Source: Kordiimonadales bacterium IMCC3096 (GTDB lineage: Bacteria; Pseudomonadota; Alphaproteobacteria; Minwuiales; Minwuiaceae). Taken from it: 64,000 nt of DNA. Numbering within the stretch: the stretch's first letter is position 1; every line of letters starts with the position of its first letter. The stretch is taken from contig CP018227.1 of assembly GCA_016865035.1 (NCBI GenBank), forward strand, positions 3,005,501-3,069,500, read 5' to 3'. Both the position numbers and the translations under genes were made by a program. This document shows positions 31,010 through 61,067 of this stretch, piece by piece. The notes beneath the pieces were generated by a model. The model had not been told where the DNA came from. It made no database searches and saw only the letters and a program-made list of their open reading frames with translations.

Positions 31010-32011
31010 TTACTTGCCGATCTGGTTGACCAGTTCCAGCAGCTTCTTGCCTTCGTCACCGGTTTCCTCGGCGAAGGCGGCATCGAATGCCGGACCCATC
31101 GCCGCCTTCATCACCGCGGCCTGCTCTGCCGTGTGGATGTGGACGGTCACATTCTTGGTGGCGAGGTTGTACGGCGCGGAACCGGCAGCCTTCTCGGTCT
31201 CCTCGACCGCCCAGACGGCAGCCTTTGCACCGGCGGCGTCCAGCGCAGCCTTGTTGGCATCGCTCAGGCCGTCATACCAGGCCGGGTTGACGTAGCCATG
31301 GAAGAAGACGCTGAACAGCGGCGAGGCCACGACCTGATCCTGGACTTCGTAGTACTTGCGTGACCAGGTGGCGGCGATGTCGGTCAGACCCGCATCGATG
31401 ACACCGGTGGACAGCGCCTGATAGACCTTGGAGCCGGACATGGCCGACGGCGCGGCACCCATGGCGCGCAGGCCGGCATCGACAATCGGGTTCAGGCCGC
31501 GAATCTTGACGCCCTGAAAATCAGCCGGGGTCAGCAGCGCCTTGCCCTTCGAGGTATAGGCGCTCATCCGGGTGGTGAACAGCCAGGCAACGTTGCGCAC
31601 GCCCTTCTCCAGCAGGGCCGCCTCGAGATACTTCGCGGCCTCCGATCCCGGCCAGTTGGCCAGGACGTCCTTGCTGGTCACGGCATAGGGCTTCAGCGTG
31701 ACATTCATCAGCGGCAGGGTCTTGCCCCACTGGAAGTTCACGGAGAAGGCGCATTCGATGCTGCCCTTGGCGACGGAGGGGATGTTTTCCTTCGCGCCCG
31801 AAAGGCTGTTGGCACCGAAGACCTGCACGTCGATGTCGCCATTCGACTGGGCCTCGACCTCGGCGGCCCAGCGGTCGATGACCTGGGCGATGTGGTGCTG
31901 CGGCGGCAGCTGGTGGCTGCAGCGCATGGCCTCGGCGGCCTGCGCCGTGCCGGACTGGCCAATGCCGGCCAGCGCGGCGGCGGCAACGGCGGTCATCAGA
32001 ATCTTCTTCAT
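31010..32011 (-). CDS. dctP: TRAP transporter substrate-binding protein DctP
   Basis: A 333-residue periplasmic binding protein with a signal peptide at 1-27 (ending AQAAE). DctP features are FQGVKIRGLNPIVDAGLRAMGA, with the Arg that normally binds the substrate carboxylate, and VYQALSTGVIDAGLTD. The C-terminal helices contain NPAWYDGLSDANKAAL. It lies between a CoA-transferase gene and dctQM. A carboxylate ligand is likely; it may be the acid activated by the neighbouring CoA-transferase. Confidence 0.94.
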   Translation of the reverse strand: MKKILMTAVAAAALAGIGQSGTAQAAEAMRCSHQLPPQHHIAQVIDRWAAEVEAQSNGDIDVQVFGANSLSGAKENIPSVAKGSIECAFSVNFQWGKTLPLMNVTLKPYAVTSKDVLANWPGSEAAKYLEAALLEKGVRNVAWLFTTRMSAYTSKGKALLTPADFQGVKIRGLNPIVDAGLRAMGAAPSAMSGSKVYQALSTGVIDAGLTDIAATWSRKYYEVQDQVVASPLFSVFFHGYVNPAWYDGLSDANKAALDAAGAKAAVWAVEETEKAAGSAPYNLATKNVTVHIHTAEQAAVMKAAMGPAFDAAFAEETGDEGKKLLELVNQIGK

Positions 32012-35595: not shown

Positions 35596-35622
35596 CGGTG
35601 GTCCATTGCGCTGACCGGGCCT

Positions 35623-35688
35623 CCCCTCTCCCCCTCCCGGCCACCCATTTCAGGATACTTGCGTGGGTGGCCGGGAGGGGGAGAGGGG
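35623..35688. repeat. Perfect 25-bp inverted repeat between convergent genes
   Basis: Arms 35623-35647 and 35664-35688 are exact reverse complements over 25 bases with a 16-base loop. The arms are pyrimidine-rich on the left (CCCCTCTCCCCCTCCCGG core) and purine-rich on the right. It sits between the convergent stops of the sulfatase (35595) and the TM2 gene (35708). A bidirectional terminator or a REP-like dispersed element are both possible. No second copy is evident in the window. Confidence 0.85.
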
Positions 35689-35707
35689 CGGAACGGTCAG
35701 CAGACAG

Positions 35708-57338: not shown

Positions 57339-57878
57339 CTAGTCGAGTTGGGACACGTCCTGCGCGTCAGCAGACGGAGAGTCGTCCGGGTCGAGCCACC
57401 GCGCGACCAGATGGATGAGGATGACGATCATGGCGATCGGGACGATCACCGCGATCCAGACCATCGGGATCCCCAGCGTATCGGCGGTCAGACCGGCCTG
57501 GCGGGCCAGGTATCCCTTGGCAAAGCCGCCGCGCAGGCCGATGAAGCAGAACCAGACGACGGGTGCGATGAAGGCGATCACGGCCGCGCTCTGCACGGCC
57601 TCGGCCAGCAAGCCGAGAAGATGTGGTCTGGGCGGAAACACGCTCTGCATCAGAACCGCGTCGGCCCGGGTCTTGAAGGACAGGGTCGCGCCCAGCAGTC
57701 CGGTCCAGACCATCATGTAGCGGGCCACATCCTCGGTCCAGGTCGGCGGCGAGGAGAAGCCGTAGCGCGCGATCACCTGGATCATCACCGTGACGAACAT
57801 GCCGCAGACCATGAACACGGCGACACGTCGTGCCACGGCATGCAGGCCGGAACTGAGCGACAGGATCAGGCTTCGCAT
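57339..57878 (-). CDS. dctQ: TRAP transporter small permease DctQ (without partner DctM)
   Basis: A 179-residue DctQ with four helices and the signature PPTWTEDVARYMMVWTGLLGA. The downstream neighbour is recQ on the other strand, 16 bases away, so no DctM follows as it does in the TRAP operon at 29145-32011. Upstream is the amidase-DctP chimera. The locus appears to be a remnant. Confidence 0.92.
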   Translation of the reverse strand: MRSLILSLSSGLHAVARRVAVFMVCGMFVTVMIQVIARYGFSSPPTWTEDVARYMMVWTGLLGATLSFKTRADAVLMQSVFPPRPHLLGLLAEAVQSAAVIAFIAPVVWFCFIGLRGGFAKGYLARQAGLTADTLGIPMVWIAVIVPIAMIVILIHLVARWLDPDDSPSADAQDVSQLD

Positions 57879-57952
57879 GGGTCGGCTTTCCAGTCTGTGG
57901 AGTGAGTGGTCGGACCCGCGGCAGTCATGCCGCGGGTCCGACCGGCTCCGTC

Positions 57953-59116
57953 TCAGCGGGTCTTGTTGGCCACGGCCAACCAGGTTTCGACATCAGCCTC
58001 GGGCAGCAGGCCGGACCGGTAGACCGGCTGCGAGAGCTCGCGGAAGGCTTCCTTCTCTTCTTCGGAAAGCCGCTGGACCGTCACACCGGCATCCTCCAGC
58101 GTGGTCAGGGCGACAACCGAGGCCTTGTCCAGCCAGGCCTGCGTCGCGGCGTTGGCCTTCGCGACGGCGTCGTTCACAGTGGCCCGCTCCGCATCGGACA
58201 GACCGTCGTACCACTGCTTGGAGGCAATGATCGCGCGGATCGGAATGATCACGCCGGCGTCGGAGAAGTTCTTCACGAAATCCGTCTGCCCGAACATGAC
58301 CGGCACGAACGGGGAGTTCAGGTAGCCGTCGATCACGCCGGTCTGCAGCCCGAGGCTGATGTCGAAGCGTGCCGGATCGGCAGGTGATGACAACGGGTCG
58401 TCGGCATCATGGCCGTGGCAGGCACGCAGCATGAGAACCAGATCGTCCACATCACGGGCCATCGGACCCAGGACCGATATGCCGGACCAGCCGAGGGGGC
58501 GGGCCGGATGGGCGATCACGTCCGCCGAGGGGCGATACCCGACGATGCCACACAGTGCCGCCGGAAGCCGCAGCGATCCGCCCGTGTCGGAGCCGGTGCA
58601 GAGCGGCAGCATGTCCGCCGCCAGGGCCGCCGCGGAACCGCCGGAGGAGCCACCGGCAATGAGGTTCGGGTTGAACGGATTCCCTGTCGCCCCCCAGACC
58701 GGATTGCGGGAATTGCCACCGGCACCCATCTCCGGAACGTTGGTCTTGGCGAGAACGATGGCGCCCGCCTTTCGCAGTCTCGCGACCATCAGCAGGTCCG
58801 CCGTGGGCACGTGATCGCGCATCCGAAGGCTGCCATAGGTGGTCAGCAGCCCCTCCGTGTCCTGCAGGTCCTTCACCCCGATCGGCAGCCCGTCGAGGAT
58901 CCCGCGAGGGGTACCCGCCTGCCAGCGGCGGGTGGATGCATCGGCCTCGGCCACGGCGCGTTCCGTGTCGAAGGCGGTCAGGGCATTGATCCTGGGATTG
59001 GCTTCGGAGATCCGGCTGAGACAGGCCTCAAGCACCGCATTGGGCGTCAGGCTGCCTGCCGCGAAACCGGCAAGCATCTGAACCGCTGTGTATTCCGTCA
59101 GCCTGGTGTTCGCCAT
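57953..59116 (-). CDS. Amidase-DctP chimera (in-frame fusion of two truncated genes)
   Basis: A 387-residue open frame made of two unrelated parts. Residues 1 to about 248 are the N-terminal half of an amidase-signature enzyme: Lys82 (PIGVKDLQ), Ser157 (AGGSSGGSAA) and Ser181 (GSDTGGSLRLPAA) are present, but the C-terminal 200 or more residues are missing. From about residue 251 (LGLQTGVIDGYL) to the end it is the C-terminal third of a TRAP binding protein DctP: QTGVIDG and KQWYDGLSDAERAT align with STGVIDA and PAWYDGLSDANKAA of the DctP at 31010. The junction is near 58355-58375. The frame is intact, so it could be translated, but neither activity is expected. DctQ follows 74 bases on. An ATG at 59125 is an alternative start. 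Confidence 0.85.
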   Translation of the reverse strand: MANTRLTEYTAVQMLAGFAAGSLTPNAVLEACLSRISEANPRINALTAFDTERAVAEADASTRRWQAGTPRGILDGLPIGVKDLQDTEGLLTTYGSLRMRDHVPTADLLMVARLRKAGAIVLAKTNVPEMGAGGNSRNPVWGATGNPFNPNLIAGGSSGGSAAALAADMLPLCTGSDTGGSLRLPAALCGIVGYRPSADVIAHPARPLGWSGISVLGPMARDVDDLVLMLRACHGHDADDPLSSPADPARFDISLGLQTGVIDGYLNSPFVPVMFGQTDFVKNFSDAGVIIPIRAIIASKQWYDGLSDAERATVNDAVAKANAATQAWLDKASVVALTTLEDAGVTVQRLSEEEKEAFRELSQPVYRSGLLPEADVETWLAVANKTR

Positions 59117-60190: not shown

Positions 60191-60257
60191 CCTGCCGGGA
60201 TCCTTGCTCGTCTCCGATGGCGCGGGCCGGTGCGATTCCATCGTCTGATGGAACGAT

Positions 60258-61067
60258 CTACGCCAGCATCCGGATGGCAGTGAGCAGCAGGAACAGGGCG
60301 AAGGCAAGCTTCAGTGTGCGGGGTTTCAGGCTGTGGGCGATGCGGGCGCCCAGCGGCGCGGTCAGGCTGGCGAAGGGGGCGATCAGCAGCAGGCCCAGCA
60401 GGTTGACGTGCCCGGCGCTGGCTTGCGGCAAGGCAGGGACGCCCCAGCCGGAGATGATGAAGCCAATGGCGCCGGGCAACGCGATGATCAGGCCGATCGC
60501 CGCCGCCGTGCCCACCGCGCGGTGCGCCGGATAGCCGAACAGGTTGAAATAGGGCACGCAGAGGGTGCCGCCGCCGATCCCCATCATCGCCGAGGTACCG
60601 CCGATGGCGAAGCCGGTTGCGGCCCCTGCCGGTCCTCCCGGCAGCCTCTCCCGCAGGCGGAAATCCGCCGGGGTGAAGGCCATGTAGGCGGCTACGACCA
60701 GCGCCACCACGGCGAAGACCAGGGTCAGGGTCGCGCCGCTGATGAAGCTGGCGATCAGCACCCCCGCGACCGACCCGGCAAGGATGAACGGCCCCCAGCG
60801 TTTCAGCAGGTCCACATCAACCGCCCCGCGCCGGTGATGCGCCCGCGCCGAACCGATGTAGGTCAGTACGATGCTGGCCAGCGACGTCCCCACCGCCACA
60901 TGCATCTTGACGGAGGGATCGATCTCCAACTGCCCCAGCATGGTGTAGAGCACCGGCACCACCACGATGCCGCCGCCGACATCCAGCAGCCCCGCCAGCA
61001 CCCCGGCGACACATCCGGTGCCGACCAGGATGGCGGCCAGCGGCAGAAGGGCGGTGGTGATTTCCAT
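60258..61067 (-). CDS. TauE/SafE-family membrane transporter (sulfite/anion exporter)
   Basis: A 269-residue TauE/SafE protein with about eight membrane helices. Repeated motifs are GVLAGLLDVGGGIVVVPVLY and GGTSAMMGIGGGTLCVPYF. Members export sulfite, sulfoacetate or related anions; substrate here is inferred. CGGAG precedes the ATG at 61067. It may share a transcript with the LysR gene (67 bases). Sulfite export would fit the desulfinase-like enzyme at 54145. Confidence 0.9.
   Translation of the reverse strand: MEITTALLPLAAILVGTGCVAGVLAGLLDVGGGIVVVPVLYTMLGQLEIDPSVKMHVAVGTSLASIVLTYIGSARAHHRRGAVDVDLLKRWGPFILAGSVAGVLIASFISGATLTLVFAVVALVVAAYMAFTPADFRLRERLPGGPAGAATGFAIGGTSAMMGIGGGTLCVPYFNLFGYPAHRAVGTAAAIGLIIALPGAIGFIISGWGVPALPQASAGHVNLLGLLLIAPFASLTAPLGARIAHSLKPRTLKLAFALFLLLTAIRMLA

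Follow-up and report, generated by a model that had tools for sequence, protein, structure and literature searches.

Results

The open reading frame (ORF) at 57953–59116, in which the N-terminal half of an amidase runs in frame into the C-terminal third of DctP, is in our assessment a natural deletion scar in a lysR-amidase-dctM-dctP-dctQ operon, made by a replication or repair event with a double template switch. We give this explanation as a whole a probability of roughly 0.87, including the loss of about 2.65 kb (the 3′ half of the amidase gene, the whole of dctM, and dctP up to its last third) and, with it, of the operon's cognate TRAP transporter from this genome. The features on which it rests are listed below by their positions in the window, the whole 64,000-nt stretch of DNA that was analyzed; identities refer to a congener (G002) with an intact operon.

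57339..57878 (−): dctQ, intact, small permease subunit (PF04290); 82% identity to congener DctQ
57953..59116 (−): fused ORF, 387 aa; amidase N-half, three filler codons, DctP C-terminal third
57953..58351 (−): dctP-derived part, beginning GGGCTGCAGACCGG; 68% aa identity to residues 193–328 of congener DctP
57986..58014 (+): donor arm of an inverted repeat, native dctP 3′ end on the opposite strand; 57992–58000 is the proposed template of the filler
58352..58360 (−): filler ATCAGCCTC, 9 nt, Ile-Ser-Leu; found at neither breakpoint in the congener, with an exact inverted copy at 57992–58000
58361..59116 (−): amidase-derived part; 79% aa identity to the congener amidase, the DNA alignment ending at the TTCGAC codons
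59252..60307 (−): LysR-type regulator, intact, upstream (PF00126/PF03466); 73% identity to congener LysR, the true start probably lying slightly inside this ORF

The sequence-only reading had proposed such an in-frame fusion, and both the frame, which contains no internal stop over its 387 codons, and a Pfam search of the ORF bear it out. Amidase (PF01425) matches residues 28–246 over profile positions 2–219 of 445 (E = 3e-70), and DctP (PF03480) matches residues 255–368 over positions 168–281 of 286 (E = 8e-14); because each profile is only partly covered, both partners are truncated. Residues 1–251 belong to an amidase-signature N-half and residues 255–387 to DctP. The Lys-Ser-Ser residues ascribed to the amidase half could be located as K82 in VKDLQ, S157 in GGSSGGS, and S181 in GSDTGGS, and we take their catalytic roles to be those of the amidase-signature family. 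Neither protein is whole: profile positions 220–445 of the amidase domain are gone, NCBIfam amidase cut-offs are far from reached (e.g., 243 versus 465 bits), and the N terminus of the ORF is that of the amidase, so that a complete two-lobed DctP with its export signal, such as the signal-like N terminus MKLKALAIALAAMVASASTVSA of the congener protein, is missing.

The ancestral arrangement can be read from relatives. A check for full-length amidase and dctP genes separated by a third gene, suggested from the sequence alone, finds this order in the congener (locus L103; the same contig, titled Minwuia sp. MAG, is L050) and in 43 further loci, the intervening gene being dctM. In the congener, lysR, a 506-aa amidase gene, dctM, dctP, and dctQ follow one another in that order. 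When genomes were scanned with only the DctP part as query, 45 loci were gathered (L046–L090, among them L050), all of which keep dctM-dctP-dctQ; lysR and the amidase gene precede these in 44, and the contig of the remaining locus starts at dctM. The cluster occurs mainly in Rhodobacterales (e.g., L046, Tropicibacter alexandrii) and shares genes, order, and orientation with the window, whose remaining parts are 68 to 82% identical in protein sequence to those of the congener; what the cluster has and the window does not are the 3′ half of the amidase gene, dctM, and the 5′ two thirds of dctP. In one of these loci (L071, 2600–4074, Pararhodobacter marinus) the amidase match falls into two pieces at residue 206/207, as from a frameshift. 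In a third genome of the genus, G005, a short contig ends in a dctQ with 75% identity (L114, 6139–6678), and the operon may also be present there; we did not accept it as a third intact copy, since the contig stops at dctQ, leaving dctP past its end, and is uninformative on dctP. A literature search returned no specific paper on an amidase-TRAP operon.

The window thus keeps lysR, half of the amidase gene, a third of dctP, and dctQ. The gap between the two edges measures 2,660 bp in the congener and about 2,655 to 2,669 bp in most other loci, once a few misplaced motif anchors in the table of edge distances are disregarded; the predeletion sequence is reconstructed from relatives at 71 to 75% DNA identity. 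Relocation of the missing pieces was rejected, as no orthologue of dctM or of the missing N-terminal part of dctP turned up in the organism's own one-contig genome of 4.29 Mb, in which the best DctM reaches 41% and the best other DctP 30%; the cognate DctMs of the related loci are 77 to 89% identical to congener DctM. DctQ therefore has no cognate DctM beside it or elsewhere in the genome. The DctP nature of the C-terminal third had been recognized by alignment with the intact DctP at 31010–32011; the assignment stands, but that gene is only a distant paralogue, with 25% identity to congener DctP, and the part in the fusion stems from the local, otherwise deleted dctP.

Two further elements were noted in this region. 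A hairpin at 57908–57943, between the fused ORF and dctQ, has a perfect 16-nt stem and a 4-nt loop and, because it lacks a T run, does not qualify as an intrinsic terminator of the ordinary kind. The lysR ORF carries at its 5′ end a dispersed repeat, about 42 nt long (60219–60263), with the palindromic core TTCCATCGTCTGATGGAA, which has 4 matches in the organism's own genome, 28 in the congener, 8 in G004, and 5 in G001.

Read on the coding strand, the sequence across the join is CGCTTCGAC-ATCAGCCTC-GGGCTGCAGACCGG. Congener DNA aligns with the amidase side as far as the GAC codon, where the amidase-derived part takes in the microhomology TTCGAC (58361–58366), and with the dctP side from GGACTGCAG onward; the nine intervening bases fit neither side. 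The partners had been described as truncated exactly at the join with the frame kept; truncation and frame hold, but the two parts do not abut directly, being separated by the filler at 58352–58360. The filler is not seen at the breakpoint in relatives, the closest of which has only 71 to 75% DNA identity. It lies within an inverted match between 57986–58014 and 58338–58366 that agrees at 27 of 29 positions and includes the exact 19-nt stretch TTCGACATCAGCCTCGGGC (19/19), by exhaustive check the sole exact 19-nt inverted pair at a spacing of 48 to 1,000 nt in the window. Apart from it, just one region of the window, 35607–35704, has an inverted match within 1 kb that reaches 24/29 or better. 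The donor side encodes SGLLPEADVETW, which aligns with SGLMPSEDVKAW, SGLLPEEDVAAW, and similar C termini of intact DctPs; since this is the native DctP C terminus, dctP would have been the source of the copy and the junction its destination. The insert thus comes from nearby, with TTCGAC as homology at one switch point and GGGCtGCAGaCCGG at the other.

Discussion

The order of steps that we infer, together with the replicative mechanism and enzyme it implies, is as follows. A nascent strand would have ended at TTCGAC in the amidase gene and base-paired in inverted orientation with its complement, GTCGAA, within the dctP 3′ end; from there ATCAGCCTC would have been copied backwards. A second switch at the imperfect homology GGGCtGCAGaCCGG (12/14) in dctP would then have allowed synthesis to resume in the original direction, skipping about 2.65 kb, and the reading frame would have survived across the join by chance (1 in 3). 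Escherichia coli provides documented precedents both for double inverted template switches whose junctions show short homology (PMC3161906) and for switching of templates at imperfect inverted repeats (PMC7202029). The event proposed here resembles long-distance template switch and MMBIR models (PMC3161906) in its nonhomologous join, short homology at each switch, and inverted nearby segment, but is an evolutionary product in a nonmodel alphaproteobacterium with an insert of only 9 nt. With quasipalindrome mutation in E. coli (PMC7202029) it shares copying off an imperfect inverted repeat, which makes the arms more alike; those events, unlike this one, are local, occur within one hairpin, and involve no kilobase deletion. 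Deletion between direct repeats was rejected, as the congener alignment shows no such repeat at the two endpoints, and Ku-dependent end joining is disfavored, since a search of the organism's own genome for a Ku homologue came up empty. The deletion joining two neighboring operon genes that had been suggested from the sequence alone is therefore upheld in an extended form, the loss of dctM and the filler having gone unnoticed.

A real deletion could also have produced the join with no templated step, if Ile-Ser-Leu represents native amidase codons, xSL in homologues standing some residues past RFD, that a small additional deletion moved up to the join, with the inverted match arising by chance. 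Many homologues do have RF-x-x-L-P-x-x-S/D-L right after the breakpoint, but this account requires an extra loss of four codons and leaves to coincidence an inverted match spanning the join that is exact over 19 nt and unique in the window at its range of spacings, and we consider it unlikely. That the genome really holds an intact operon and the join is an assembly or amplification chimera seems to us very unlikely. Inverted template switching can also be a source of chimeras in whole-genome amplification; against such an origin, the genome is a single contig, 100% complete with 0.03 contamination, no repeat liable to mislead an assembler lies at the join, and a templated filler is not something an assembler invents; its inverted form bears the mark of a double template switch, which speaks against misassembly. 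Three origins were entertained at first: a natural scar, a translated neofunction, and an assembly error. Of these, the scar is favored by the templated, inverted nature of the filler and by the single contig of the genome.

Least likely of the explanations weighed, and very improbable in our view, is a selected new protein, in which the chimera is expressed and useful, for instance as a binding domain, supplied by the amidase half, that carries the DctP C-terminal segment. If it were translated and selected, an accident would have given the lineage a new and useful cytoplasmic protein, which would explain why its halves are undecayed. The frame is open without a stop, the promoter side and the LysR regulator are intact, and neither half has decayed. 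However, profile positions 220–445 of the amidase and the signal peptide and N-terminal part of DctP are gone, the transport partner was lost with dctM, and the fusion occurs in no other genome searched. No homologue with the same two-part layout, which would have pointed to a real domain fusion, was found among 60 relatives (matches above 140 bits listed) or 385 genomes of the class, two partly overlapping sets in which the best matches to the ORF cover the amidase part only; we therefore rejected a true domain-fusion family.

The lack of decay is equally expected after a recent event. The retained parts are about as similar to outgroups as the congener's intact genes are, with 1 of 108 and 1 of 50 near-invariant sites altered. 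In a branch model, omega on the organism's own branch is not raised, a weak result in that synonymous branches are long and near saturation and a short postdeletion period is beyond its resolution. Decay or relaxed selection left no sign in either test. Conservation of the two halves equals that of intact copies, so the deletion was probably recent; the absence of decay fits this and would also fit continued selection. The fused product, if made, is likely a nonfunctional cytoplasmic fragment, since it amounts to half an enzyme with no signal peptide and no permease, only dctQ being left of the cognate one.

The deletion scar offers a clean natural case, 45 loci giving the ancestral order, in which one inverted template-switch event deletes a permease gene and fuses its neighbors in frame. 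ORFs of such origin score well as both amidase and TRAP protein and should not be read as real domain fusions. For the organism, this is ordinary gene loss, in which a transporter kept by many relatives has been lost from its genome by a mechanism that is unusually readable.
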